A stretch of DNA of 35,835 nt from Clostridiales bacterium (GTDB lineage Bacteria; Bacillota; Desulfotomaculia; Desulfotomaculales; VENG01). A program made the translations under genes and the position numbers. The stretch lies in the NCBI GenBank assembly GCA_016278505.1, contig JADQBQ010000015.1, positions 1 to 35,835 on the forward strand, written 5' to 3'. The notes under the pieces were generated by a model. It searched no databases. It was not told the DNA's origin and worked only from the letters and a program-made list of their open reading frames with translations. Positions 5,491 to 35,835 of this stretch are shown piece by piece. The first letter of the stretch is position 1. Every line of letters starts with the position of its first letter.

Positions 5491-6132
5491 TTACCTTATT
5501 TCAACTGGTGTCCCCTCTTCTACCAGACCAAAAATTTCAAGCACCTGCTTATTACTCATTCTGATGCAGCCACCCGAGACGTGCTTTCCTATTGAATCGG
5601 GTTCATTTGTACCGTGAATACCGTATTTGTGACCGGCAGGGGCTCTTTCATCATTATGTGCCCGCATATCATTTTTCCACGGCACACTGAGCCCCATCCA
5701 GCGCACCCCCAGCTGGGGATTTAATTCCCTGTCATTTTCAATCTTGTTGGCTATTTTAAATTTTCCCTCCGGTGTATATTGGGGCTTTTTACCTGTGGCA
5801 ACCGGGTAAGTTGCATACAATTCACCGCTTTTATACAGGTATAAACGATTTTCACTTTTATTAATAATTATTTTATCCCGGCTTGTACGAGGGTTAGGAT
5901 AAACAGACAAAACCTTAAACTCCGGCGTGAGCCCTATTAAAACAACATCATCATCCAGGGCCAGCTTGACGCCCTCCTTAATTGACATTCCTGCCAGCGG
6001 GGCAGTGCCGGCAGGCTTTTTACTCACCCTGTCTAAGCTCATGTCCTTACTCCAGCCGTAAACAATGAATATACCGGTAATGATAAAAATTATTGTGAAG
6101 GCATAAAACACTTTTCTTTTCATCTTATCCAT
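5491..6132 (-). CDS. L,D-transpeptidase (YkuD/ErfK family), membrane-anchored
   Basis: 213 residues from the ATG at 6132, which overlaps the stop of the upstream protease gene (ATGGATAA). A longer frame to 6153 is unlikely. An N-terminal membrane anchor (about residues 7-25) exports the protein. The YkuD domain occupies about 90-213 and carries the catalytic signature H173-GTNEP, H184 and SGGC189IRM, so it should make or edit 3-3 peptidoglycan cross-links or attach groups to peptidoglycan. No LysM domain is seen. It is the last gene of the hydrogenase-direction operon although unrelated in function. Spore-formers often use such enzymes in envelope or cortex remodelling, but that role is not shown here. 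Confidence 0.9.
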   Translation of the reverse strand: MDKMKRKVFYAFTIIFIITGIFIVYGWSKDMSLDRVSKKPAGTAPLAGMSIKEGVKLALDDDVVLIGLTPEFKVLSVYPNPRTSRDKIIINKSENRLYLYKSGELYATYPVATGKKPQYTPEGKFKIANKIENDRELNPQLGVRWMGLSVPWKNDMRAHNDERAPAGHKYGIHGTNEPDSIGKHVSGGCIRMSNKQVLEIFGLVEEGTPVEIR

Positions 6133-6601
6133 CCCACCCACCGCAGCTTGCATCTATCGGGTTTCGACAGTATGTTAAAATAATTTTAACCAGTTCCGGT
6201 ACTTTTTCTTCAATCTCTGGAGATAATTGAAAAGAATAATTTAAGTTTTTAGGCTCTACCCCTAGAATGATTACTCCAGGCCTGGCGCCGTGAAAAGCGG
6301 CCATTTTTAAAACATCACGGAAATGAACTTCATGTCGAATGCCATACTTTTCATCCTCACCGATGCACCCCGGGCCAACCCGGTAAACTGTTCCGGCCGG
6401 GCCTCCACCTAACATACTGTCCACCGCAATAACATGGTGGGACTGCAGCAAAAAACTCCAATAATTAAAGAAAGAACCTCCTGCTTCTACGGGCTGTACG
6501 TCCGAAGGCACAGGACATTTTTTTAACTCTTGTACGACGCGCGGGCCTATGCCGTCGTCACAGAAAAGTGGGTTACCAAGGCCTATTATTAACACTTTCA
6601 T
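6125..6601 (-). CDS. [NiFe]-hydrogenase maturation endopeptidase (HyaD/HybD/HycI family)
   Basis: 158 residues. Starts with the family block VLIIGLGNPLFCDDGIGP. Nickel-sensing ligands expected from HybD/HycI are present as Asp16, Asp61 (AVDS) and His90 or His93 (RHEVH). The enzyme removes the C-terminal tail of the hydrogenase large subunit after nickel insertion. Its likely substrate is encoded at 7748-9157 and ends in a 15-residue tail after DPCAACATH. It lies downstream of the cytochrome gene and overlaps the transpeptidase start by 8 nt. No hyp genes are in the window, so the other maturation factors must be encoded elsewhere. Confidence 0.95.
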   Translation of the reverse strand: MKVLIIGLGNPLFCDDGIGPRVVQELKKCPVPSDVQPVEAGGSFFNYWSFLLQSHHVIAVDSMLGGGPAGTVYRVGPGCIGEDEKYGIRHEVHFRDVLKMAAFHGARPGVIILGVEPKNLNYSFQLSPEIEEKVPELVKIILTYCRNPIDASCGGWDG

Positions 6602-6658
6602 GCCGGTATCTCCTCTTTTTTTAATCAGATGTGCATCGAATAAAGTTTTAGTTCTAAT

Positions 6659-7279
6659 TTACTTCGGTGTAAAATAACCTGTGAAAATGGACTTTAACTT
6701 TGACAGGTCGTCCGTAAGAGCGAAGTAAATGTGACCGGATAGTAAGCCGGTAATCACAGTGGCGCTTAAGTAGTGGACAAGGCGGGTTTTGCCCAGCCCA
6801 CCGAAAATCCGGCTCAGTTTTTGCAATTTACTCGCGGAATACATGGCATACCCGGTCAAAATTTGCAATGGAAATAGAACTGCCATCTGAACAAAGAGCA
6901 GCTTTTGCCCCGGGTTGTATTTAGGATAATGGGTTTTTTTCTTACGCAAAAAGATAGTGTACCTGAGGAATTTAGGCAGGGAAAGCATGTCTTTTCTATT
7001 GGGCAGTAAATCCTTATAATCACAGTTTGCCCATCCATAATAAGCCCGGGATATTAAGTATGAAACAAAAAAGTACTGGGCAGTAAAATGCATCTTTCTA
7101 GCAGTATCCATGTTATTAAAACTTTTAGTGCGGGAAGGCTTATGGACATAAAAACCATTAATGATCAGAGAAAATGTGGCCGGTACAAGCACCCAGTGCA
7201 TGGCCCGCAGCAGGCCGCTGTGACGTTTGACCGGTATTCCTTTCATTCTGATGCCCAACAATTTGTCCTGCCAATTCAT
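6659..7279 (-). CDS. b-type cytochrome, hydrogenase membrane subunit (HyaC/cytochrome b561-like)
   Basis: 206 residues from the ATG at 7279, which overlaps the stop of the ferritin-like gene (ATGA). A longer frame exists but would overlap that gene by 80 nt. Four membrane segments with histidines suited to haem binding: RHSGLLRAMHW in TM1, MHFTAQYFF in TM2, and LVHYLSATVITGLLSGHIYF in TM4. It probably passes electrons between the hydrogenase small subunit and menaquinone. The family resemblance is to Ni/Fe-hydrogenase and thiosulfate-reductase cytochrome b subunits. The cytoplasmic loop between TM2 and TM3 is strongly basic. Confidence 0.82.
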   Translation of the reverse strand: MNWQDKLLGIRMKGIPVKRHSGLLRAMHWVLVPATFSLIINGFYVHKPSRTKSFNNMDTARKMHFTAQYFFVSYLISRAYYGWANCDYKDLLPNRKDMLSLPKFLRYTIFLRKKKTHYPKYNPGQKLLFVQMAVLFPLQILTGYAMYSASKLQKLSRIFGGLGKTRLVHYLSATVITGLLSGHIYFALTDDLSKLKSIFTGYFTPK

Positions 7280-7725
7280 GCTTGGTTGCGGTCTAATTCT
7301 TTTAGTTTGTTGGCGAACCAGGCGGTATGCAGGTCCTCGTCTATGAGGTTGTCCCAAAGAGTATTGGAAAGGTGCTCGTCACTGACTCTGATAATCAGGT
7401 CTTTGTAATCCTTCATGGCCTTTTCTTCCAGGTTGATTCCTATTTTAAGTACCGCCCTGAGACCTAAAGCCCCGGACAAGAAACCGGCCGTCTTACCCAA
7501 AAGCGGCGAAATAACGTCTCCTATCTTAGTAGGTTTGGACCCCAGCTCCTTAATTTGCGCGGCTATATTATCCACATGCTGCTGCTCAATGCCCGCAACC
7601 CGGGTCAGGGTTTTAGTTAGGTAGATATCCTCCATAAACCGTGCTTGAGCCATATAAAAGTCCACCTGGTTTAACTCCAAGCTGTAAAACCAGTTTAGTT
7701 TAGCAATAAGTTCCTTCTCTTTCAT
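7276..7725 (-). CDS. COQ7/ferritin-like diiron four-helix protein in the hydrogenase operon
   Basis: 149 residues, no signal peptide. The spacing of acidic and histidine residues fits a carboxylate-bridged diiron site on four helices: Glu17, Glu47-x-x-His50, Glu100/Glu101 and Glu130-x-x-His133. A glycine-rich hydrophobic stretch (about 75-99, GKTAGFLSGALGLRAVLK) resembles the membrane-associated segment of COQ7-type proteins. It lies 22 nt downstream of the large subunit and overlaps the cytochrome by 4 nt, so all three should be made together. The function is unknown; oxygen or peroxide removal near the hydrogenase, or a quinone-related role, are possibilities. Ribosome site GGGGAGGGGC lies upstream of the ATG. 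Confidence 0.75.
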   Translation of the reverse strand: MKEKELIAKLNWFYSLELNQVDFYMAQARFMEDIYLTKTLTRVAGIEQQHVDNIAAQIKELGSKPTKIGDVISPLLGKTAGFLSGALGLRAVLKIGINLEEKAMKDYKDLIIRVSDEHLSNTLWDNLIDEDLHTAWFANKLKELDRNQA

Positions 7726-7747
7726 GGTGCCCCTCCCCGTCGCAAGC

Positions 7748-9157
7748 TTACACAGGTATAATAAATTCTTTTACCGGTTTTCCAGGTACAATAACGTGAG
7801 TGGCACATGCAGCACACGGGTCAAAAGAACGCACCACCCGGCTTATTTCCACCGGTTCCTTGTCATCTGCCACCGGAGTGCCCAGGAGAGCCTCCTCCAT
7901 TGGGCCCGGCTGCCCGGCTTCGTCCCGCGGGGACATATTCCAGGCTGTAGGGGTGATAATCTGGTAATGGGCAATTCTTCCCTTTTCTATACGCACCCAG
8001 TGTCCCAGCGGCCCGCGCATGGCCCCGGTAAGCCCGGTACCTTCCGCTTCCCGGGGTACTTTAAAGGGCTTATAAACAGGCTCTCCAGGATGCAACTCTT
8101 CCAGCCACGACTGCATCATTTGCCCTACTATTTGGGCTTCCAATGCCCTGGCCACAGTTCTGTCCATAGTGGATACACCCCGGCGGTATTTATTACTTAT
8201 CCACAGCCGAGCCAGAGGGCCCCCCTCCATTGATATTCCATCATACCGGGGGGCCTTAATCCAGCTATAAGCTCCTTCCTTTGACCTGTCCGGGTCCGTA
8301 TTACCCTCTGCAGGGTGCTGCGGATTTTCATTGCCCCGGTACCACGCGCTGGTTAAATCCTCTTGAACAGACTTAATGTTACCACCTTTCACATCACCGT
8401 TAGCTACCAGACCACCCGGAAAATATCTTTCCCTATCCTTTTCATCCCTGGGGAATAGACCATATTCCAACAAATTTGCCCGGCGCTGACCTATTTCATA
8501 ATAATCTGCATAGACCTCGGCTATAGTATACACATCTGGCAGCATTCTGTTATGTATAAAGTCATGTACTTTTTTTAGTTTATATTTAAAATCTAACAGC
8601 ACGTCTGCAGTGGGGGCTACTGTAGACCCACCGGCCAGCAGACTGTGGGGAAACGGGGCCTTGGCACCCAACACCGCCACCATTTCGTGGGTCAGGCGGG
8701 CCATTTCCAGGGATTGATAATAGTTTTGCAGCATGGAATCGTTAGTTTTTTTAGATAAGCGGAAACCTTTTTTATAACCCGGAATGAAGGGTGGCATGTC
8801 AGGTCCTTTAACATAATCAGGCAGACCTAAAAGGTAGAAATGTCTGATATGATTTTGTAGTATATCTGCCCCGAAAATTAAGTTGCGCAGTATATTTCCA
8901 TTGCGAGGGGGCCTGACACCGGCCGCATCCTCCAGGGCATAGGCAGCCGCAGTGCCGTGGGCCGAAGAACATATACCACATATTCTTTCCGTGAGGTAAC
9001 TGGCATCCCGGGGGTCCCGGTCCCGCATGATTAGCTCAAACCCCCGAAAAAACTGGCAGCTGCAGTGCGCATCCACTACCTTTCCATCTGATATAGTCAC
9101 CTCAACCACAAAGGGACTGTTGGAACGCGTAACCGGGTTGATGGTAATTTTTTTCAT
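7748..9157 (-). CDS. [NiFe]-hydrogenase large (catalytic) subunit
   Basis: 469 residues. The N-terminal nickel motif is RGFE...RICGIC...H (Cys60, Cys63, His67) and the C-terminal motif is DPCAACATH (Cys448, Cys451, His454). Together they supply the four cysteines that hold the Ni-Fe(CN)2CO site. After His454 comes a 15-residue tail ending EFIIPV, expected to be removed by the protease encoded at 6125-6601. The ligand is Cys, not selenocysteine. An unusual HCSCQFF lies just before the first motif. Length is near that of compact group 1 enzymes. The partner small subunit is 0.5 kb upstream rather than adjacent. The start ATG follows GGAGG. Confidence 0.97.
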   Translation of the reverse strand: MKKITINPVTRSNSPFVVEVTISDGKVVDAHCSCQFFRGFELIMRDRDPRDASYLTERICGICSSAHGTAAAYALEDAAGVRPPRNGNILRNLIFGADILQNHIRHFYLLGLPDYVKGPDMPPFIPGYKKGFRLSKKTNDSMLQNYYQSLEMARLTHEMVAVLGAKAPFPHSLLAGGSTVAPTADVLLDFKYKLKKVHDFIHNRMLPDVYTIAEVYADYYEIGQRRANLLEYGLFPRDEKDRERYFPGGLVANGDVKGGNIKSVQEDLTSAWYRGNENPQHPAEGNTDPDRSKEGAYSWIKAPRYDGISMEGGPLARLWISNKYRRGVSTMDRTVARALEAQIVGQMMQSWLEELHPGEPVYKPFKVPREAEGTGLTGAMRGPLGHWVRIEKGRIAHYQIITPTAWNMSPRDEAGQPGPMEEALLGTPVADDKEPVEISRVVRSFDPCAACATHVIVPGKPVKEFIIPV

Positions 9158-9246
9158 ACTTCCTCCGTACGTAAAGAGATAGAAAAAAAATTTTAGGGTA
9201 TTTCTTTTTGGAAAATATTTGAGGTATTCCTTTAGGGTCGTTTTCT

Positions 9247-9273
9247 GACAGGATTAACAGGATTTGCAGGATT
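9247..9273 (+). repeat. Short tandem repeat, ACAGGATT units
   Basis: Three imperfect 9-nt units (ACAGGATTA, ACAGGATTT, GCAGGATTG). Inverted, diverged copies lie at 9577-9602 and 9638-9654, so the island is bracketed by this family. Confidence 0.75.
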
Positions 9274-9353
9274 GTTTTTGAGCAGGATCATTACTTAAGA
9301 GCGTAGAAACATCATGGTTCTAAAAGAGCACTATTATTCGCAAAGATATAAGA

Positions 9354-9440
9354 TTGTCATTCTGAGTGCAGCGAAGAATCTGAGTATTTATGTGCGCTTA
9401 TAAGATTCTTCATTTCACTTCGTTTCATTCAAAATGACAT
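9354..9440. repeat. MITE-like inverted repeat (TGTCATTCTGAG type)
   Basis: The left arm begins TTGTCATTCTGAGTGCAGCG and ends AAGAATCT. The right arm runs from AGATTCTTCA to AAAATGACAT. The arms pair imperfectly, with a central segment of about 20 nt. No transposase is present nearby. Confidence 0.65.
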
Positions 9441-9501
9441 GAAACTAGACTTTTTCAGCAGTCCCAGACGAGTCCTCTTGCTTCCTTGCTTAAAAGTATT
9501 G

Positions 9502-9554
9502 TTTGGGTCTTGGCTTATGGGTCTTTTTAAAAGACCCATAAGCCAAGACCCAAA
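9502..9554. repeat. Perfect 26-bp-arm palindrome
   Basis: Arms 9502-9527 and 9529-9554 are exactly complementary around a single T. The left arm starts TTTGGGTCTTGGC. On the + strand it is followed by TAATTTTTTTG, so it could terminate + transcription. On the - strand, the direction of the hydrogenase genes, there is no T-run. Confidence 0.85.
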
Positions 9555-9660
9555 TAATTTTTTTGTTTTAATCTCTATCCCGCGTATCCCGTTAATCCCG
9601 TCAAAAATTGCCCTTTCTCTTTTAGGGTTAATAACAAAATCCTGTAATCCTGTCTAATTT

Positions 9661-10797
9661 TTAAAGTCTTTTTATTGCTTTTTTAACTGTCTTATTTAAT
9701 ATATTCTTGACCTTCCCGGCCGGGGTGGTTTCCAGTACTTGAAAACCTACTTTGGCGGGCATAAAGCCCTTTTTAATGGTCTTGGGCAGTCTGCCTTTCA
9801 GGATGCTGGTTAATAGATGTCCCCCTATTCCCGCGGCGGTTATTGTTCCCACCACGGCTCCAACCCTGTTGGCATTGACGGTCACTCCCGGCAGGTGGAT
9901 ATCCGGTAAGTGTTCAAAGAACGGTTCGCTGTAATCAGGAAATTCCGGGCTCACACACCCTATACAGGGAGTACTTGCACCCACCGGCCAGTTTAAGTGT
10001 TCCCCGTTCCACTGCCGCTGCGGGCAGTCAGCAAAGGTAACCGGACCTTTACACCCCTCTTTGTACATACACCAGGGTTCCCCCGGATGGGCCGAAAAGA
10101 TGCCGCTGTCAAAATAATGCCTGCGCTGGCACAAGTTATGTATGGTTTCCCCGAAAAACAAGGTGGGACGGTTATATTCATCAAGCTCCGGCTCTCCAAA
10201 CCAAATAAGATGGGCAAGGGTTCCACTGACCCAGTCCGGATGAACCGGGCACCCCGGAACATTAATCACTTTCCGATCCACTACGTCCTGTACCGACTTG
10301 CCCCATGTAGGATTAGGTCTTGCCGCGTATGGTCCGCCAAAGGCCGCACAGGTTCCCACAGCTACCACGTAACGGGACACAGAGGCCAATTCCCGCACTG
10401 CCTCCAGAGCGGTCAAAGGCCTTCCTTCCCTTAGCCCGATAACACAGGATAAACCTTCAAAGCGAGTGGGCACAGTGCCTTCTACAATTAAAATAAAATC
10501 CTCGAAATTACCGGCCATGGCATCCGTTAATACCCCTGTAGCCATATTCCCTTCTGCAGTCATAACAAAACTGTTATACCGAAAATCTATCAAATCTGAT
10601 ATAACCGCCCGGTAACCCGGGTCCAGAGAATTTAGGAAAGAAATAATATCACCGGCACAGGTATTGGTGCCCAACCATATTACAGGAGGGCGTTTGGCCT
10701 TATTTTCCTTAAGTAAATCTCCAACCAGTCCAGATGTAAGTCCGGTGTCACTGGTATTATTTTTAAATAAACTTATAAAATCCGTCTTGTTAATCAT
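9661..10797 (-). CDS. [NiFe]-hydrogenase small (Fe-S) subunit with Cys-to-Asp proximal ligand
   Basis: 378 residues from the ATG at 10797, which follows AGGTGA by 8 nt; the in-frame GTG at 10809 overlaps that ribosome site. Distal cluster ligands are present (IHNLCQRRHYF; PWCMYKEGC), as are medial ones (ADCPQRQW; TPCIGC). Three proximal ligands are present: Cys47, GTCAAFGG and NVPGCPVHP. The fourth proximal position is Asp50 (TCAGDI) instead of Cys, as described for actinobacterial-type group 1h hydrogenases. There is no Tat (RR) signal peptide, and a TAG stop in frame just upstream rules out a longer N-terminus. The C-terminal 90 residues include a weakly hydrophobic stretch and a basic tail (KTVKKAIKRL). 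Subgroup assignment needs a tree. Confidence 0.95.
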   Translation of the reverse strand: MINKTDFISLFKNNTSDTGLTSGLVGDLLKENKAKRPPVIWLGTNTCAGDIISFLNSLDPGYRAVISDLIDFRYNSFVMTAEGNMATGVLTDAMAGNFEDFILIVEGTVPTRFEGLSCVIGLREGRPLTALEAVRELASVSRYVVAVGTCAAFGGPYAARPNPTWGKSVQDVVDRKVINVPGCPVHPDWVSGTLAHLIWFGEPELDEYNRPTLFFGETIHNLCQRRHYFDSGIFSAHPGEPWCMYKEGCKGPVTFADCPQRQWNGEHLNWPVGASTPCIGCVSPEFPDYSEPFFEHLPDIHLPGVTVNANRVGAVVGTITAAGIGGHLLTSILKGRLPKTIKKGFMPAKVGFQVLETTPAGKVKNILNKTVKKAIKRL

Positions 10798-10854
10798 TTT
10801 TTTTGTCACCTATAACAATTCTTTCCCCGAAGCCATATTTTATGTAAAAGAAAA

Positions 10855-11273: not shown

Positions 11274-12038
11274 CTAGCCAACACTGTGGTGTGGCTCTGT
11301 GTGAGGGACCAGAGAATGCGGCTTTTCCAGGCCGTGGGCCTGCATCAATGCCACATTGCCCATTATTTCCGCTGGCTGGCCGTCACTAACTATGCATCCT
11401 TCGTCTAATAAAATTACCCGGTCGCATACCTCCAGTATGAACTCCAGGTCATGGGAAGCAACAAGCATTGTTTCCTGTGATTGCTGCAAAAAATTAATCA
11501 GGCGCCTTCTATAACTACTATCCAGATTAGAGGTTGGCTCGTCGTATATTACCAGTTCCGGATGCATGGCTAATACTCCGGCAATGGCCACCATCCTCTT
11601 CTGCCCGCCGGAAAGATGATGCGGCGGGTATGCGGCAAATTCCTGGATACCGGTTAATGCCAGGGACTCCTTTACCCGGCTTTCCACATCCTTAGCGGAA
11701 AGGCCCAGATTTTTGGGGCCAAAGGCCACGTCATCCTCTACACAGGGGCAAAAAAGCTGGTCATCCGGATTCTGAAAAACCAGCCCCACTTCAGGGCAAA
11801 ATTTTCCCGGTACCACCTCCTGCCCGAACAGGCTAATGCTGCCGGAGACCGTTTTTAGTACACCGCAAATGAGCATAAAAACCGTAGTCTTTCCCGCTCC
11901 GTTAGGGCCAATTATGCCCACCCTCTCTCCCGGCCATACTTTTAGGTTCATATTCTTTATAACCGAGGAACGTTGAGGGTAACTAAATGATAGATTGTAA
12001 ATATCCAGCGCCGGTTCATTTTGAGTATTTTGTTTCAT
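11274..12038 (-). CDS. cbiO: ECF transporter ATP-binding protein (CbiO/NikO)
   Basis: 254 residues. Walker A GPNGAGKTT, Q-loop VFQNPDDQLF (with the DDQLF pattern typical of ECF ATPases), signature LSGGQKRMVAIA and Walker B LVIYDEPTS followed by the switch His in VASHDLEF. It hydrolyses ATP for uptake of Co2+ or Ni2+. The gene order M-Q-O with a NikL-like small protein, next to a [NiFe] hydrogenase, favours nickel (inference). It is the last gene of the operon; the ATG follows GGAGG. Confidence 0.94.
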   Translation of the reverse strand: MKQNTQNEPALDIYNLSFSYPQRSSVIKNMNLKVWPGERVGIIGPNGAGKTTVFMLICGVLKTVSGSISLFGQEVVPGKFCPEVGLVFQNPDDQLFCPCVEDDVAFGPKNLGLSAKDVESRVKESLALTGIQEFAAYPPHHLSGGQKRMVAIAGVLAMHPELVIYDEPTSNLDSSYRRRLINFLQQSQETMLVASHDLEFILEVCDRVILLDEGCIVSDGQPAEIMGNVALMQAHGLEKPHSLVPHTEPHHSVG

Positions 12039-12053
12039 AAAGAATCCTCCAAC

Positions 12054-12827
12054 TTAACGTATCAGTATTTGGCCTACTACAAAAGCTGCGGCAACCAGAA
12101 GTAATATAATTAGCCCCCAAAGGTCACGTGAATATGCTTCAAATTCTTCTTCATGCTGCCCGCCCCGGTTCACATCTGCCTGGCCATAACCACGCAGGGT
12201 CATAGCTTTATATACCCGGTCCGATTGTTCGTAGCTACGCACCAATATGGTGCCCGCCAGCGAAGCAAGAGTAACCAGACCCTTTATGTTATGTCCTTGA
12301 AACCCCCTTAGCCTCATGGCTGTTTGCATTGTTTTTAGGTTGTCGCTTATATCGTAAAGATAGCGGTAAGTGAACAAAATCATATCGGCCAGTATGGAAG
12401 GAAGGCCCAGAGCGCACATGGCCTTCACATTGGTTAAGAAAGGAGAAGTACCGAAAAGTATAATGCCCATAGTAAGAATAGATACAAATTTCACTGCAAT
12501 AAGCAGTAAGTCCAGGCACCCCTCTTGTTTTACAGACAGGGGTCCCAGGTGAAACAAAACGGTACTACCGGAAATAAAAGGGAGCAAAACTCCCATCATT
12601 AACAGAAAGAATCCGGGCAGTCGCATCCGGGCCAACAGGAAGGAAAGGGGCAGTTGGGAAACAGCATAGAGCACACCACTTACCGCAACCATAAAGGGAA
12701 GTAACTGCAAATTATCCACAAAGGAAAATGCAAATATTAAGGTCATAAATCCTACCAGTTTATATCTGGGATCCCAGCTGTGTAAAGGTGTCTCCAGGTA
12801 TGCATAACGATCCAGCTGTAACTTCAC
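12054..12827 (-). CDS. cbiQ: ECF transporter transmembrane protein (CbiQ/NikQ)
   Basis: 257 residues, five to six membrane segments. The CbiQ-type coupling region is present in the C-terminal half (MQTAMRLRGFQG and YKAMTLRGYG, the two Ala-Arg-Gly-like motifs that contact the ATPases). The start is GTG, 5-8 nt after GGAGGGG. It is separated from cbiM by 2 nt and from cbiO by 15 nt, so it belongs to one operon. It couples the ATPase to the substrate-binding CbiM subunit. Confidence 0.93.
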   Translation of the reverse strand: MKLQLDRYAYLETPLHSWDPRYKLVGFMTLIFAFSFVDNLQLLPFMVAVSGVLYAVSQLPLSFLLARMRLPGFFLLMMGVLLPFISGSTVLFHLGPLSVKQEGCLDLLLIAVKFVSILTMGIILFGTSPFLTNVKAMCALGLPSILADMILFTYRYLYDISDNLKTMQTAMRLRGFQGHNIKGLVTLASLAGTILVRSYEQSDRVYKAMTLRGYGQADVNRGGQHEEEFEAYSRDLWGLIILLLVAAAFVVGQILIR

Positions 12828-12829
12828 TG

Positions 12830-13468
12830 TTACCCCTCCAATAACTCCGGCTTAACACGCTGCAGAAAAACTGCCACCACGGCGGTAAAAACGCCCTCCA
12901 AAATCATTACCGGTATATGGGCCAGGGTAAGGGCGTAAATACTAGCCTGCTCCGCTTCCACATCTAAATGTGCCGGTATAGTGGTAACCAGGATAAAAAA
13001 GGCTGCCACCGCGGCAAGTGCAATCCCTCCACCGCCGGCCAAAAAACCGAATAAACCGGTAAGAACACGGTTTTCCCTGCCCAATATATTTCGGAGACGA
13101 AACAAATAGAAGGCCAGAAGGGCCGGCACACCAATGACAGTGGCGTTAACACCCAGCGTCGTGAGCCCTCCGTGTTGGAACATGATGGCCTGGAAAAAAA
13201 GCCCGATCAGAATGGCAGGAAAAGCATAGTAGCCCAGCACCACTCCCAAAAGGCCGTTTAACATTAGATGAACACTGGCCGGAGGTATAGGTATGTGTAT
13301 CCATGAGGCCACCAGAAAAGCAGCGGTCAAAAGTGATGCTTTAGGCATACCTTCCCGCGGATTCTCCTGCCGGCTGATTTTGCGAAGTGAAAACCATGCT
13401 GCCGCCCCGGCAGTAGCGTACCCACCAAGGCAGACAGCGGTGGGCAAAACCCCGTCAGGAATATGCAT
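12830..13468 (-). CDS. cbiM: ECF transporter substrate-binding protein (CbiM/NikM)
   Basis: 212 residues. It begins MHIPDGVLP; in this family the N-terminal Met-His takes part in metal binding. A further His-containing segment, ASWIHIPIPPASVHLMLNG, and FQHGGLTTLGVN are family-conserved. About six membrane helices. The ATG overlaps the stop of the NikL-like gene and follows AGGAGG. Specificity between Ni2+ and Co2+ cannot be settled from sequence. The NikL-like partner and the neighbouring [NiFe] hydrogenase suggest Ni2+; no cobalamin genes are in the window. Confidence 0.93.
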   Translation of the reverse strand: MHIPDGVLPTAVCLGGYATAGAAAWFSLRKISRQENPREGMPKASLLTAAFLVASWIHIPIPPASVHLMLNGLLGVVLGYYAFPAILIGLFFQAIMFQHGGLTTLGVNATVIGVPALLAFYLFRLRNILGRENRVLTGLFGFLAGGGGIALAAVAAFFILVTTIPAHLDVEAEQASIYALTLAHIPVMILEGVFTAVVAVFLQRVKPELLEG

Positions 13469-13914
13469 TAATTTTTCCTCCTCTTAAAAAATAAGGCTGT
13501 ACCGATAAGCCCCCATACCACGCAGGCCACCATAAGAACTATTTGCGTTGTGGTATACCCGGTACTTCCCGCAACCGCTTCCTCTCCATCTACATTAACA
13601 TGAATCATTCCTCCATGGCCGGCTTTACGCACCTGTATATCCCAGGTTCCCTGCATGGAAGGGTCCGGAGTGAAGGTAAAGCGGCCTTTTTCGTCACACT
13701 GCCCTGTCTTCCATGGAGTGGAGGGGTCATCCGGAGAATAGATAGTCACCTGTCCGTTACTTACAGGTTCGCCAGTATCATAGCTTGCAGTAAACTCCAC
13801 TGCCTTTGTGGTCTGGTATTCGATGTTAACCCCGTGACCGAATGCCGCCGCAGGTAAGGAAAATAAAAATATAATCGCTGCTAAAAAGATAAAAGATCTC
13901 ATTCCATTCATCAT
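13468..13914 (-). CDS. NikL/CbiL-like small transporter component
   Basis: 148 residues from the ATG at 13914 (AAAGGATGG upstream); a longer frame runs into the upstream gene. Signal peptide (about 1-25, ending PAAAFG) followed by a mature N-terminus HGVNIEY, an Ig-like beta domain (about 30-110, GQVTIYSPDD...GTWDIQVRKAGHGG) and a C-terminal membrane helix with a KRRKN tail. This is the layout of NikL-type extracytoplasmic subunits of nickel ECF transporters. Histidines at the new N-terminus and in GHGGMIH could bind metal. Confidence 0.8.
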   Translation of the reverse strand: MMNGMRSFIFLAAIIFLFSLPAAAFGHGVNIEYQTTKAVEFTASYDTGEPVSNGQVTIYSPDDPSTPWKTGQCDEKGRFTFTPDPSMQGTWDIQVRKAGHGGMIHVNVDGEEAVAGSTGYTTTQIVLMVACVVWGLIGTALFFKRRKN

Positions 13915-13942: not shown

Positions 13943-14770
13943 TCAAAGTACTTCACAGTAACAGTGGCCTTCACCCACATGTCCCAAAGTGGTAAGCATT
14001 GTTTCAAGTTTTTGATAATCTTCGGGTGAGAGTTTTTCTTTTAACCCTGCCATATTTATCTCCACGTTACCATCTGCGGCCAGGCCTGCAAAGGGCGCAA
14101 AACCAGGTGCTCCCACATTAAGCTCATCGTCAGCAGGTGTTCCCGCATCACCGAAAATGTGATCGAAATGGAATGTCATTTCCAGATCAGTGTTTCCCCC
14201 CTCCTGTACAATTCCCTTGCGTTGGTCACCGATAAATTCACCGCCGGTATACTTATACTCTTTTTCATTCTTTAAAGTAAAATTAACGGTTTTCCCGTTC
14301 TTTACCGCTGCACCGGCAATTACCAGCGAATAGCCCTGGGCCGGCCCTTCAGAAGCTTTTAGCATTTGCCAGGAGATGGCGTTATAATGACCAACGGGCA
14401 CTTCCTTTTCACTAACCAGAATAGGTAAAGCGTTTTGGTCACCTGCAGCCAAATCCACCGTATGCGCCCCTGGGATGATTGTTTTTGTTGCAGCCTGAAC
14501 CTCACCGCCTGCATGGGCGTCGTAAGGAGGATCGGATTGGTAAGCAGTTATATCTGCCAGGTTAACATATACATGGTTAAAGGAAACATCCCAGCCATCC
14601 TTGGAGGTAAAACCCTGCCTTACAAAGTCCTCACCATTCGCAGTAAATTGCAGTGTTCCGGTTTTGTTTTCGCTTTGCTCTGCCCGGTCACCCGTACCGC
14701 CTGAGCCGCAACCGGCTAGAATAGCCGCCAGAAAAGTGAGTAATACCGCCATGTAATAAAATTTCTTCAT
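13943..14770 (-). CDS. DUF4382-type lipoprotein with His/Cys-rich C-terminus
   Basis: 275 residues. Lipoprotein signal with lipobox LAGC at about residue 21. The body (about 40-200) resembles the DUF4382 family of extracytoplasmic beta-rich proteins (GWDVSFNHVYVNLADITAY, VPVGHYNAISW). Potential metal ligands cluster in the second half: FHFDHIFGD and the extreme C-terminus GHVGEGHCYCEVL. It is the first gene of the transporter operon, 28 nt before the NikL-like gene, so an extracellular nickel/cobalt-binding or sensing role is plausible but unproven. It is preceded by an unusual leader (see 14861-14968). Confidence 0.7.
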   Translation of the reverse strand: MKKFYYMAVLLTFLAAILAGCGSGGTGDRAEQSENKTGTLQFTANGEDFVRQGFTSKDGWDVSFNHVYVNLADITAYQSDPPYDAHAGGEVQAATKTIIPGAHTVDLAAGDQNALPILVSEKEVPVGHYNAISWQMLKASEGPAQGYSLVIAGAAVKNGKTVNFTLKNEKEYKYTGGEFIGDQRKGIVQEGGNTDLEMTFHFDHIFGDAGTPADDELNVGAPGFAPFAGLAADGNVEINMAGLKEKLSPEDYQKLETMLTTLGHVGEGHCYCEVL

Positions 14771-14860
14771 AATTTCTTTTCCTCCCGATTAAATTTTAAA
14801 ACCGGGCTCCGATCCCTGGATTCCGTAGTAAACTAATTACCAGCGCTAGTAAATAAAAAC

Positions 14861-14904
14861 ACCACGAAAGAATCCCTGCTTCTTGCAGAGAATACCTCCG
14901 TGGT
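14861..14904 (-). terminator. Terminator-like leader hairpin upstream of the DUF4382 gene
   Basis: On the - strand: ACCACG...CGTGGT stem (14899-14904 with 14861-14866), an inner stem CTCTGC/GCAGGG, then GTTTTTATTT. It lies 90 nt before the gene. It corresponds in position and partly in sequence to the hairpin at 15515-15563. It could be an attenuator, or it could end transcription from the DUF3842 gene. Confidence 0.6.
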
Positions 14905-14951
14905 ATTTAACTTTGTATTTATTTGTTATTATGATTTACCAATCGTCGTGC

Positions 14952-14968
14952 GGTGGATTCATTCCACC
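14952..14968 (-). promoter_or_regulatory. GGTGGA-N5-TCCACC inverted repeat
   Basis: Six-bp arms, 47 nt upstream (in - direction) of the ACCACG hairpin. The same motif and arrangement occur at 15612-15627. Either a protein operator or the first hairpin of a leader RNA. Confidence 0.55.
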
Positions 14969-15055
14969 TATTTCACGATTAATTCGCCATACAAACCTGA
15001 TATCCTGCAATATTAAAAAAATAATCTTCAATATTCAAAATAATTTTACAAAGAA

Positions 15056-15490
15056 TTATAAATTAAGGAATGTACGTATCCTGTCCACCAACACATCCAC
15101 AAGATGTGGCAGCGGTTCCGTGGAGCTACCGATTAATTCCACTCCGGAACGATTCAAATGCAACACATATTTAGGGGCTGGCGATAGGGCCACCGCCTCG
15201 GCCGCGGGAGTGGTCATTTCACCGCTGAAACCAAATGGCATAAGCATTCCGACGGCACCCGCCAGCAAGTCAATCCGCTGTGCATTATAAACAATGGCGC
15301 TTTCTCCGCTGGCCACCTCATTTGCACCCGCTTTATACATACGGCCTGCAGCAAGGGCATTAGTACCCAGGGCGATAATTTCAGCCCGCGCGGCCGGCAG
15401 CGCCATGGCCAGCTTTTCCACCACCTGCGCCCCTATGCCGCCGCCCTGCCCGTCAATAACACCTATTCGATAAATTTTTTCTTTACTCAT
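15056..15490 (-). CDS. DUF3842 family protein
   Basis: 144 residues from the ATG at 15490 (AAGGAG upstream); the longer frame to 15550 runs through the terminator hairpin. Family blocks: RIGVIDGQGGGIGAQVVEKL at the N-terminus (Rossmann-like glycine-rich loop), ALGTNALAAGRMYKAGANE, ESAIVYNAQRIDLLAGAVG, and a C-terminal LNRSGVELIG. This is a small cytoplasmic family with no assigned function. It stands alone, with a leader matching that of the next gene downstream, suggesting shared control with the DUF4382/metal transporter operon. Confidence 0.85.
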   Translation of the reverse strand: MSKEKIYRIGVIDGQGGGIGAQVVEKLAMALPAARAEIIALGTNALAAGRMYKAGANEVASGESAIVYNAQRIDLLAGAVGMLMPFGFSGEMTTPAAEAVALSPAPKYVLHLNRSGVELIGSSTEPLPHLVDVLVDRIRTFLNL

Positions 15491-15514
15491 AATTTGTAGT
15501 CTCCTTACACAAAA

Positions 15515-15563
15515 AAACCATGAAGTTAGCCCACTCCAAGTGTGGCACAAACCTTCATGGTTT
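15515..15563 (-). terminator. Terminator-like leader hairpin upstream of the DUF3842 gene
   Basis: On the - strand, AAACCATGAAG pairs with CTTCATGGTTT (15553-15563 with 15515-15525, 11 bp) and is followed by a T7 run. An inner GCCAC/GTGGGC helix is possible. The T-run ends only about 20 nt before the ATG, which suits transcription attenuation. Confidence 0.65.
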
Positions 15564-15611
15564 AGTTCTTAATTATCATATTATGTGTATCTCAATATAA
15601 AAATGCTTTCT

Positions 15612-15627
15612 GGTGGTTCTTACCACC
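15612..15627 (-). promoter_or_regulatory. GGTGGT-N4-ACCACC inverted repeat
   Basis: Six-bp arms, 48-50 nt upstream of the hairpin at 15515-15563. Matches the motif at 14952-14968 in sequence, spacing and orientation. Confidence 0.55.
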
Positions 15628-15678
15628 TATTAATAATAGTTTCTATATGCTGGTCTTAATTCCTTCTTTTAAAAATAT

Positions 15679-16312: not shown

Positions 16313-16365
16313 AAAAAAACCAATAACTCAACACTAGGTGCCTGGCACCCAGTGTTGAGTTATTG
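16313..16365 (-). terminator. Intrinsic terminator overlapping the GalT-like stop codon
   Basis: 15-bp arms CAATAACTCAACACT (16321-16335) with their complement at 16351-16365, plus an inner GGTGCC/GGCACC helix after one mismatch. A T7 run follows on the - strand (16313-16319). The TAA stop at 16360-16362 is inside the stem. Confidence 0.85.
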
Positions 16366-31905: not shown

Positions 31906-32203
31906 GTTAAAATACCTACCTTTGGCACAAATGGATTTGAGAAATATTACGAGTTATATTGCCGACAGCCTTAAAGCACCAAAGGCTGCCATGGATTTGG
32001 TTAATGCCCTTGACAATTCAATTTCCCGGCTTCAAAAATTTCCATACTCTTGTAAGGTATATCAACCAATAAAACAGCTTGAAGCTGAATACAGAATGTT
32101 ACCTGTAAAAAATTACATGGTATTCTATATGGTGACTGAGCATGAGGTAGAAATACACAGAATTATTTATGCCAGGATGAATCTTGAAAAGCTTATCAAA
32201 TAG
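31898..32203 (+). CDS. RelE/ParE-superfamily toxin
   Basis: 101 residues from the ATG at 31898, inside the end of the antitoxin gene (ATGTATAA overlap). Superfamily features: LPLAQMDLRNITSYIAD helix, RLQKFPYSCKVY, YRMLPVKNYMVFYMV strand and the C-terminal VEIHRIIYARMNLEKLI block. Probably an mRNA-cleaving or gyrase-directed toxin; sequence alone does not decide. Its TAG stop is only 6 bp before the first CRISPR repeat, with no terminator between. Confidence 0.88.
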   Translation: MYKLKYLPLAQMDLRNITSYIADSLKAPKAAMDLVNALDNSISRLQKFPYSCKVYQPIKQLEAEYRMLPVKNYMVFYMVTEHEVEIHRIIYARMNLEKLIK

Positions 32204-32975
32204 CCTCAAGTTTCAATCCACACTCCCGTACCGGGAGTGACAGATTACTTCGAAGCTTATGGGATAGATGAAAGTGTTTCAATCCACACTCCCGTACCGG
32301 GAGTGACGGTGTGCGAGCTGGATATATATTAGACCTACAGCGTTTCAATCCACACTCCCGTACCGGGAGTGACAACTTTATCAGCGAAGAAAAACCAAGA
32401 CACTCTTGTTTCAATCCACACTCCCGTACCGGGAGTGACAATAGCTTATCTCCTGCTGAGTTGGCCATCAGGGTTTCAATCCACACTCCCGTACCGGGAG
32501 TGACCGCCCAGGCTGAAGCCGAGCGTATTAAGAAGCTGGAGTTTCAATCCACACTCCCGTACCGGGAGTGACGAAACGGATCGGATGGATGGAGATATGC
32601 CTATCGGTTTCAATCCACACTCCCGTACCGGGAGTGACTAACTAATTAGTTGCTTTATGTCGTTCTATCACTTATCGGTTTCAATCCACACTCCCGTACC
32701 GGGAGTGACGGTTAGTAGGCGAGAAATAGTGTTCAATGTTTACGTTTCAATCCACACTCCCGTACCGGGAGTGACCTTGCCGGTTAAATTTGATTTGAGG
32801 TTGATGTCATGTTTCAATCCACACTCCCGTACCGGGAGTGACCCGGACACGGTGGTTCGTATTGTCGAGAGCCGACAGTTTCAATCCACACTCCCGTACC
32901 GGGAGTGACCTTGATTCACTGTCAAAATATACACAATACCGGGGTTTCAATCCACACTCCCGTACCGGGAGTGAC

Positions 32976-33010
32976 CTTCCATTTCTCCCGGCCCTCGTTG
33001 CGCCTGTCCT
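32976..33010 (-). other. Spacer 12, diverged partner of spacer 53
   Basis: 35 nt. Shares its last 18 bases (CTCGTTGCGCCTGTCCT and one upstream base) and most of the rest with the spacer at 35699-35734. On the - strand it reads in frame as DRRNEGREKWK. Confidence 0.85.
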
Positions 33011-34371
33011 GTTTCAATCCACACTCCCGTACCGGGAGTGACATTGGGCCATCCAAGGTCGATACAATATAAGGGAGTTTCAATCCACACTCCCGTACCG
33101 GGAGTGACGCAGCACACGTCACGGCACACGCAAGGATGATGTTGTTTCAATCCACACTCCCGTACCGGGAGTGACCATATTGTGGCTATGATAAGTTTAG
33201 AAAATTAATAGTTTCAATCCACACTCCCGTACCGGGAGTGACAGCAAAATATGAGAGCACGGCAAAACTTTCTGGGTTTCAATCCACACTCCCGTACCGG
33301 GAGTGACGGGCCGCAACGCTTGGAACGTGGTGTCTCAGATATGTTTCAATCCACACTCCCGTACCGGGAGTGACCCATAATTGTTGCCTGTCTATACAGT
33401 TTGTTGTGTTTCAATCCACACTCCCGTACCGGGAGTGACACCGATCCCGCCTGGGAAAAGATAAATAATCACGTGTTTCAATCCACACTCCCGTACCGGG
33501 AGTGACATAACCTACGGCTGCCAGGGTGTAGGCGTCTTGATATGTTTCAATCCACACTCCCGTACCGGGAGTGACGATCAAGGATTAATCTTAGCCTGGA
33601 TAGAGTAATTGTTTCAATCCACACTCCCGTACCGGGAGTGACGAAAAACAGTTAAGCTAACCCCTGAAGATAAACAGTTTCAATCCACACTCCCGTACCG
33701 GGAGTGACGCAATATCAGGGATACAATATGGAGATGCAAACAGGTTTCAATCCACACTCCCGTACCGGGAGTGACTTCTGTGCCAGAATTACTTTCTGCT
33801 GAATTAGATGTTTCAATCCACACTCCCGTACCGGGAGTGACATTTGCATGGGATAATGAACAACTGGAACGGGCCGTTTCAATCCACACTCCCGTACCGG
33901 GAGTGACGTGTACCCTTCATAAAAACAGGTTTCTTGTGCCTTGTTTCAATCCACACTCCCGTACCGGGAGTGACCTAAATATATTTTTTTGTTATATTTT
34001 ATTGCAATAGTTTCAATCCACACTCCCGTACCGGGAGTGACAGAAATTTCTAACGGAGCTAATACTTTATTAATAGTTTCAATCCACACTCCCGTACCGG
34101 GAGTGACGTTAGGGGATAATCTTCTAAAGTACAAATCCCTGTTTCAATCCACACTCCCGTACCGGGAGTGACAGTTAAAACAAGCAGGGAATTGGAGTTC
34201 AGATCCGTTTCAATCCACACTCCCGTACCGGGAGTGACTAGTACAACAAAAGCATATCGGACCAAATTGCAAGTTTCAATCCACACTCCCGTACCGGGAG
34301 TGACTTGGCATTGAACGCAGAGGAATCAGGGAATTATGAGTTTCAATCCACACTCCCGTACCGGGAGTGAC

Positions 34372-34408
34372 TGGAGGAGGTCACACAATGAATTATAAGG
34401 ACGTATTG
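34372..34408 (+). other. Spacer 33, contains a ribosome site and start codon
   Basis: 37 nt. On the + strand it reads GGAGGAGGTCACACAATG and then codes for MNYKDVL, so it appears to be taken from the translation start of a target gene. Confidence 0.55.
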
Positions 34409-34571
34409 GTTTCAATCCACACTCCCGTACCGGGAGTGACGTTTGATCTGTGGATCGGTGCCTACTGGGACAAGGGTTTCAATCCACACTCCCGTACCGG
34501 GAGTGACGACAATCCTGGAAAACAGGGGTGGAGTTAATAGTTTCAATCCACACTCCCGTACCGGGAGTGAC

Positions 34572-34673
34572 TTCACACCCACCAAACAACTCAATAATAC
34601 ACCCCAGTTTCAATCCACACTCCCGTACCGGGAGTGACTTCACACCCACCAAACAACTCAATAATACACCCCA
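34572..34673 (-). repeat. Duplicated spacer-repeat unit (spacers 36 and 37)
   Basis: Spacers 34572-34606 and 34639-34673 are identical (35 nt, starting TTCACACCCACC), separated by one repeat. Most simply explained by duplication of one spacer-repeat unit within the array. Confidence 0.95.
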
Positions 34674-35698
34674 GTTTCAATCCACACTCCCGTACCGGGA
34701 GTGACTAACACGTGACGTGACGTAATGCAATAGAATACCGTTTCAATCCACACTCCCGTACCGGGAGTGACGCAAGAAAGAAAAACTTGGATAGATAATA
34801 ACATTGTTTCAATCCACACTCCCGTACCGGGAGTGACCAGTATGCTTAAATGTGTTATTTGCCTGTTATGTGTTTCAATCCACACTCCCGTACCGGGAGT
34901 GACTAACCTTAAGACATTATCTCGATGGTACATACCCGTTTCAATCCACACTCCCGTACCGGGAGTGACGGCCATGACTCCTAATGAATGGCGGCATGTG
35001 ATGTTTCAATCCACACTCCCGTACCGGGAGTGACATTGCACCAGGGGGAAGCTGTATTATCCAGGACTGTTTCAATCCACACTCCCGTACCGGGAGTGAC
35101 AGCCAGCAGGGTACCCTTGGAAGTCACAGATGCAGTTTCAATCCACACTCCCGTACCGGGAGTGACCAGACTACCTTTCCGTCTACCATGCCATGCTTCA
35201 TGTTTCAATCCACACTCCCGTACCGGGAGTGACGAGAGAGTTGTGTATTTACGCCGAGCAGGTAAAAAGTTTCAATCCACACTCCCGTACCGGGAGTGAC
35301 TAGATCAGCACAAAACCACCTACAATCGTCGGATGTTTCAATCCACACTCCCGTACCGGGAGTGACGAGATAGCTATGAGGAATAAAGAGATATTTAAAA
35401 AGTTTCAATCCACACTCCCGTACCGGGAGTGACTACAATATCATAGATAATGTCAGATCAAAATATGGTTTCAATCCACACTCCCGTACCGGGAGTGACA
35501 CCCCTGCTTGTCTATTCTTACCGTTGCCCAAAAGGTTTCAATCCACACTCCCGTACCGGGAGTGACTATAGTTTAGAATTAACTACAATAAATAAATATT
35601 GTTTCAATCCACACTCCCGTACCGGGAGTGACAAAGTCAATAATGACAAGGGTTTCAGCAAATTAAGTTTCAATCCACACTCCCGTACCGGGAGTGAC

Positions 35699-35734
35699 CT
35701 TTCCAGTTCTCCCGGTTCTCGTTGCGCCTGTCCT
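35699..35734 (-). other. Spacer 53, diverged partner of spacer 12
   Basis: 36 nt. On the - strand it reads in frame as DRRNENRENWK, matching the product of spacer 12 except for Gly-to-Asn and Lys-to-Asn. Two spacers from homologous genes of different invaders. Confidence 0.85.
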
Positions 35735-35835
35735 GTTTCAATCCACACTCCCGTACCGGGAGTGACTCGGCAACTCATAAGATACTACATCTGACCTATC
35801 TTCGTTTCAATCCACACTCCCGTACCGGGAGTGAC

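Follow-up and report, generated by a model that had tools for sequence, protein, structure and literature searches.

A widespread, so far undescribed family of tandem-hairpin leaders, probably an RNA switch, at the head of nickel/cobalt-handling messages in anaerobic bacteria

Efflux genes are served by the NiCo (czcD) riboswitch, which folds into a compact four-way junction. Other riboswitches consist of tandem hairpins whose loops are conserved, like guanidine-II (mini-ykkC), in which ACGR tetraloops kiss. In the RNA substrates of ANTAR-domain regulators, both hairpins have a hexaloop with A at position 1 and G at position 4. They are separated by a linker of 5-12 nt, and lengths of 3 or 14 nt are detrimental (PMC3369931). 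At the DNA level, the delta-proteobacterial NikR consensus is GTGTTAC-N13/14-GTAACAC, and NikR is predicted to repress a Ni-free [Fe] hydrogenase in response to nickel (PMC545781).

We analyzed a stretch of 35,835 nucleotides from a Clostridiales bacterium of the class Desulfotomaculia (contig JADQBQ010000015.1), called the window here. Its two leaders, both on the minus strand, are described in Table 1. An earlier note on this DNA had reported two GGTGGW-N4/5-WCCACC inverted repeats, each followed by an AT-rich spacer and a T-run hairpin, upstream of a DUF3842 gene and a DUF4382-CbiM operon, and all of these elements were recovered. The repeats form the 5' hairpin HP1, which lies 45 nt (leader 1) and 48 nt (leader 2) from the next hairpin, HP2. 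The T-run hairpins fold with -26.4 kcal/mol (ACCACG..CGTGGT) and -21.6 kcal/mol (ACCATG..CATGGT), and the whole leaders reach z-scores of -6.8 and -4.1 against shuffled sequences. The repeat pattern has no other match in the window, where chance would give 0.04, and shuffled sequences never contained two. Genome-wide, the bare repeat is found at chance level, in 12 places versus 12 for a reversed control pattern, so that the significance sits in the combination of repeat and terminator and not in the repeat alone. Three features were absent from the earlier note: HP2 within the 5' arm of the terminator, a nested hairpin HP3, and an (A)NGRA loop common to the three hairpins.

Table 1. Positions of the leader elements and of the genes behind them in the window.
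Feature	Position	Strand	Description
HP1, leader 1	14952..14968	-	GGTGGA[ATGAA]TCCACC; at or near RNA 5' end
Outer stem enclosing HP1	14941..14980	-	AATCGT/ACGATT; from fold; leader 1 only
HP2, leader 1 (antiterminator hairpin)	14892..14906	-	ATACC[ACGGA]GGTAT
HP3, leader 1	14874..14890	-	CTCTGC[AAGAA]GCAGGG; nested in terminator
Intrinsic terminator, leader 1	14859..14906	-	Arms ATACCACG/CGTGGTGT, then TTTTT; from fold; R2 match 14856-14906, 41.6 bits
HP1, leader 2	15612..15627	-	GGTGGT[AAGA]ACCACC
HP2, leader 2 (antiterminator hairpin)	15549..15563	-	AAACC[ATGAA]GGTTT
HP3, leader 2	15529..15546	-	Nested in terminator; from fold
Intrinsic terminator, leader 2	15515..15563	-	Arms AAACCATG(AAG)/(CTT)CATGGTTT, T-run; from fold; R2 match 15512-15563, 47.1 bits
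Possible promoter	15633..15659	-	TTAAGA-15-TATTAT, short spacing, directly 5' of leader 2 HP1; predicted
DUF4382 lipoprotein gene	13943..14770	-	First gene of the operon after leader 1; Pfam match under curated cut-off
YtkA/CarboxypepD_reg-like periplasmic protein	13468..13911	-	Weak match; NikL-like position (NikK/NikL precedent, PMC545781)
CbiM/NikM permease	12830..13468	-	Pfam PF01891
CbiQ/NikQ	12054-12827	-	ORF; assigned from sequence and operon order
CbiO/NikO ATPase	11274-12038	-	ORF; assigned from sequence and operon order
DUF3842 gene	15056..15490	-	Behind leader 2; Pfam PF12953, E 1.4e-42

The leader is built of HP1, an AT-rich spacer, the antiterminator hairpin HP2 (CC[AYGRA]GG) and a terminator (CCAYGRAG/CTYCRTGG-Tn) with HP3 nested inside. 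The 5' arm and loop of HP2 double as the 5' arm of the intrinsic terminator. The segment AACCAYG can pair with the terminator 3' arm (CRTGGTT), or else its AACC pairs with the GGTT just 3', leaving AYGRA as the pentaloop of HP2. The loop bases AYG are terminator bases too, and in many cases R also has a partner in the 3' arm (CCATGGAG..CTCCATGG). Among 20 aligned terminator regions, the core C-A-N-G-N-A is invariant.

Both structures covary. In the alignment also used for the first HP2 test, 92.4% of the terminator cells are paired, with 22 double changes versus 5.5 after shuffling. For the 139 distinct rows found by the covariance model, the terminator shows 132 double changes (42 shuffled) and HP2, paired at 88%, shows 84 (32 shuffled); the sequences are related, so that shuffles overstate significance and the slid controls, which lie far lower for HP2, are the safer measure. 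HP2 was absent from the structure imposed by the model, and its covariation is therefore a largely independent check. The C/T-G/A exchange between the two window hairpins is compensatory, as the earlier note had said, and recurs in these 139 relatives as C-G in 72 and U-A in 57.

The switching mode envisaged in that note, with HP1 pairing with the terminator arm, found no support: the longest complementarity averages 4.19 nt, versus 4.12 nt after exchanging terminators among leaders (93 of 300 as high). The real alternative to the terminator is HP2, within the terminator's own 5' arm. Folding of the window leaders makes the terminator more stable than the HP2 form by 10-13 kcal/mol. This difference implies that the default state is OFF and that HP2 must be held by something.

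The HP2 loop is a pentaloop AYGRA (ATGAA, ACGAA, ACGGA or ATGGA) in 131 of 133 leaders. Within the 130 nt upstream, an HP1 of at least five pairs whose loop is NGRA or NNGRA was detected in 64 of the 127 non-redundant leaders, compared to 3.4 (maximum 7) in dinucleotide shuffles. An HP3 with an NGRA-type loop lies inside the terminator in 52/133 (1.5 in shuffles). In the HP1 test, control loops such as GNRA, NARG and NCRA stay at about chance level; NRGA, which overlaps NGRA, is also raised. Under the strict definition, HP1 is missing from roughly every second leader, and in some leaders (L067, L068) transcription seemingly begins right at HP2. The spacer between HP1 and HP2 has a median length of 49 nt (quartiles 39-62, 10th-90th percentile 32-68, range 6-119). 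In five loci, tandem HP2/terminator units stand ~70-280 nt apart before a single gene (L287 at 3518 and 3793, L113 at 5212 and 5317, L102 at 3514 and 3789, L122 and L214), as if two attenuators were stacked.

Counting Watson-Crick stems only, the HP1 loop motif occurs on the transcribed strand of 39 leaders and on the opposite strand of one (n = 127), which favors recognition as RNA over a DNA operator. The best predicted promoter has a -10 element ending at most 20 nt 5' of HP1 in 33 of 70 leaders, which would place HP1 ahead of any other structure in the transcript. These results bear on the simpler explanation offered in the earlier note, a protein operator plus an ordinary terminator. In this view a repressor would bind HP1 as DNA, and the second element would simply terminate transcription, for instance that of the upstream gene. 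The perfect inverted repeats near predicted promoters would suit an operator. However, the strand bias of 39 to 1 does not, HP1 stem sequences differ freely among leaders as long as loop and pairing stay, and the terminators overlap with a conserved HP2 and are followed by targets in the same direction. We regard an operator as highly improbable.

Both window leaders are RNA attenuators of a large family missing from Rfam, an undescribed but widespread RNA switch opening nickel/cobalt-handling messages. As the earlier note had stated, no known riboswitch is matched: no Rfam family reaches its gathering score in the window, and 14 related loci gave no relevant match. One candidate, TEG147, was rejected, being terminator-like and scoring 27.2 bits for a cut-off of 56.1, about half the gathering score. 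The literature searched, largely outside subscription journals, contained no description of such a leader, recent ncRNA surveys nothing relevant, and no paper on DUF3842 was found there. A first covariance model, R1, caught only three pairs and was superseded by R2. Within the class, R2 matches 83 of 113 genomes, with as many as 19 matches in one genome; across the phylum, it matches 102 of 378. The relatives include Desulfotomaculum, Desulforudis and Peptococcaceae genomes. Three loci from Desulfobacterota (L282, L286, L287) likewise have an R2 match 5' of DUF4382, each folding with an ANGAA-loop HP1. The genome of the window contains three convincing copies, the third one being located before an FmdE gene (23.2 bits).

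A dozen other genomes of the class encode orthologues of the DUF4382 protein, in part as fragments; those in the same operon are 62-69% identical. The neighbors, where read, again form DUF4382-YtkA-CbiM(-CbiQ) operons. The leaders of these relatives and of the window's DUF3842 subfamily follow the same plan with diverged sequence. Copies upstream of DUF3842, DUF4382 and CbiM/NikM genes, with covarying stems, bear out the attenuation leader with nickel/cobalt targets that the earlier note had considered conceivable.

The genes behind the leaders encode NikA, NikBC, CbiM with or without PDGLE, CbiQ, CobN, FmdE, DUF3842 and DUF4382, but also FecB/FecCD-type carriers, a ZnuA-type protein, a CooC/MinD-like ATPase, a HycI-like protein, SAM methyltransferases and a [FeFe] hydrogenase with a TAT signal. 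A listed target gene lies downstream on the same strand in 128 of 156 leaders, versus 17/156 on the divergent side; the list was compiled from the matches themselves, so that the first count is partly circular and only supportive, a circularity limited by the divergent-side control. The TAT-signal [FeFe] hydrogenase follows the leader in three loci (L128, L145, L157), which suggests a switch to a nickel-free isozyme. Short ACT-like proteins (..RIGVIGIVVENR..), with weak NikR_C matches in some genomes, adjoin DUF3842 or follow a leader in L301, L303, L305, L116 and L129. They are possible nickel-sensing partners.

The metal itself is indicated by a comparison with NikR. A NikR_C search of the class returned a single high-scoring NikR (84.7 bits, genome G053), whose gene heads the same DUF4382-YtkA-NikM-NikQ-NikO operon (L300, G053:C14:63500-69500), with the DUF4382 gene apparently split over two frames. 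Upstream of this nikR lies the site GTGTTAT-N14-GTAACAC, close to the consensus of PMC545781. No leader was detected in this genome, which is weak evidence of absence as the assembly is 72% complete. The occurrence of the same operon under nikR, with no leader detected, points to nickel. The other NikR_C matches in the class (20-27 bits), where read, look not like NikR but like short ACT proteins, which we take to be of the TM1266 type. The genome of the window has no NikR_C match, although a gene missing from a draft genome counts for little. The CobN (cobalt/corrinoid) and ZnuA-type targets weaken the case for nickel alone. Judged from these gene contexts, nickel shortage would be the signal, with cobalt as an alternative via CobN. 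Downstream of the NikMQO operon (6125-10809), the ORF sequences resemble a [NiFe] hydrogenase large and small subunit, a cytochrome b and a maturation protease, which would fit a nickel supply for hydrogenase.

The computations yield two exclusive covarying structures, a shared loop motif, strand specificity, target genes and distribution. From these we infer that a protein and not the metal binds the RNA, that nickel is the signal and that binding means ON. The leaders would then be transcription attenuators of a nickel (possibly nickel/cobalt) starvation regulon, read by a trans-acting RNA-binding factor of the (A)NGRA loops, a reading to which we assign a probability of roughly 0.6. Transcription would begin at or just before HP1 and, by default, the terminator would form and stop RNA polymerase. 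When metal is scarce, the factor, probably dimeric or oligomeric, would grip HP1 and HP2, perhaps also HP3, by their (A)NGRA loops. HP2 would thereby be kept folded, its 5' arm and loop held off the terminator 3' arm, and polymerase would read through into DUF3842 and into the DUF4382-NikLMQO nickel uptake operon.

A direct riboswitch would dispense with the factor, the tandem NGRA hairpins themselves binding Ni2+/Co2+ or a metal-dependent metabolite and choosing between HP2 and terminator. The regulon handles metals, the exclusive structures covary, tandem hairpins have a precedent in guanidine-II, and none of the candidate proteins tested co-occurs perfectly with the leaders. Nevertheless, conservation is restricted to 4-5 loop bases over a spacing of 6-119 nt, unlike a compact aptamer. 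The HP1 loops (e.g., AAGA) and HP2 loops are not mutually complementary, and HP2 would have to overcome the whole 10-13 kcal/mol deficit. We consider a riboswitch unlikely. With only loop bases and pairing conserved and an elastic linker, a protein bridging NGRA loops is likelier than an aptamer, and the variable spacer suits such a protein.

Among the proteins encoded behind the leaders, DUF3842 itself could be the RNA-binding regulator, controlling its own synthesis. It is one of the commonest targets and is encoded in 81 of the 87 genomes where R2 finds a leader at E<=1e-3 (R2 E-values being rough; Fisher p about 5e-27), a co-occurrence statistic inflated by shared ancestry. However, a 99% complete genome (G114) has five leader matches, with a typical target cluster where inspected, and no DUF3842 match, and 89 genomes encode DUF3842 with no leader detected. 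The DUF3842 model is Rossmann-like, with weak fold matches to nucleotide-binding enzymes, no RNA-binding homologue and no close PDB match. In spite of the tight co-occurrence, DUF3842 was rejected as the regulator for the G114 exception and for a predicted fold giving no hint of RNA binding, and we rate this possibility as decidedly improbable.

A factor-read attenuator would explain the control of nickel uptake in many nickel-dependent anaerobes (users of hydrogenase and CO-dehydrogenase) that mostly lack a recognizable NikR. It would also predict an undiscovered RNA-binding metal sensor. The short motif of the family is a marker as well, linking metal homeostasis to uncharacterized families: DUF3842, DUF4382, FmdE-like and CooC-like proteins, and SAM methyltransferases encoded next to ABC transporters.

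Two further repeated structures were observed in the window. A long perfect hairpin at 16321-16365 has a CAGGCACC core and a T-run (CAATAACTCAACACTGGGTGCCAGGCACC...). L047 has a similar palindrome, GTGCCAGGCAC, 5' of its DUF4382 gene, so that the hairpin may belong to a dispersed class of palindromic elements. The region ~32200-35835 resembles a CRISPR array: SIHTPVPGVT, SLPVRECGLK and VTPGTGVWIE recur in many short ORFs of different frames, the pattern that direct repeats in tandem, separated by spacers, would produce.

In comparison with described systems, the leaders are organized like those of the ANTAR proteins EutV, NasR and AmiR, with termination by default. Both kinds have a pair of small hairpins whose loops resemble each other, and the downstream hairpin shares sequence with the 5' half of the terminator (PMC3369931). 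An ANTAR-domain regulator might thus read them as variant P1/P2 elements, and ANTAR genes are present in 99 of the 113 genomes of the class. However, instead of A1/G4 hexaloops and a 5-12 nt linker, the leaders have (A)NGRA tetra- or pentaloops, a median linker of 49 nt and a third hairpin within the terminator. ANTAR targets concern nitrogen and ethanolamine, those of the leaders nickel and cobalt. The domain (PF03861) was detected in 38 of 47 leader-bearing genomes, that of the window included, but not in the other nine, of which eight are at least 95% complete and one is a single contig; conversely, ANTAR-rich genomes without leaders exist (G038-G042, G055-G058). Canonical ANTAR control was rejected for this misfit of loop type, linker and gene distribution, and we think a variant form quite unlikely.

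CsrA/RsmA sites (ANGGA in hairpin loops) also consist of several hairpins presenting a GRA loop, at a spacing that a dimer can bridge. CsrA was rejected in turn, as the HP2 loop reads GAA and not GGA in 98/133 leaders and the gene is missing in leader carriers; it is present in the window's genome but was not found in the leader-rich family f8 (G044-G051, 1-7 leaders each). The NiCo (czcD) and other Rfam metal riboswitches share an RNA control tied to nickel/cobalt, whereas the leaders are tandem hairpins before uptake genes and match no Rfam family at gathering score. Guanidine-II has tandem hairpins with conserved loops as well, but the leader loops are neither ACGR nor complementary, again with no Rfam match.

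The NikR regulon comprises the same type of operon (NikMQO and accessory periplasmic proteins), and a Ni-free [FeFe] hydrogenase is among the leader targets too. In contrast, NikR is a DNA-binding repressor and is almost absent from the class, where the leader seems to take its place. That the leaders are the RNA half of an undescribed nickel-starvation control in Firmicutes and Desulfobacterota, replacing NikR and served by a sensor outside the known antiterminator families, is in our view an even bet.
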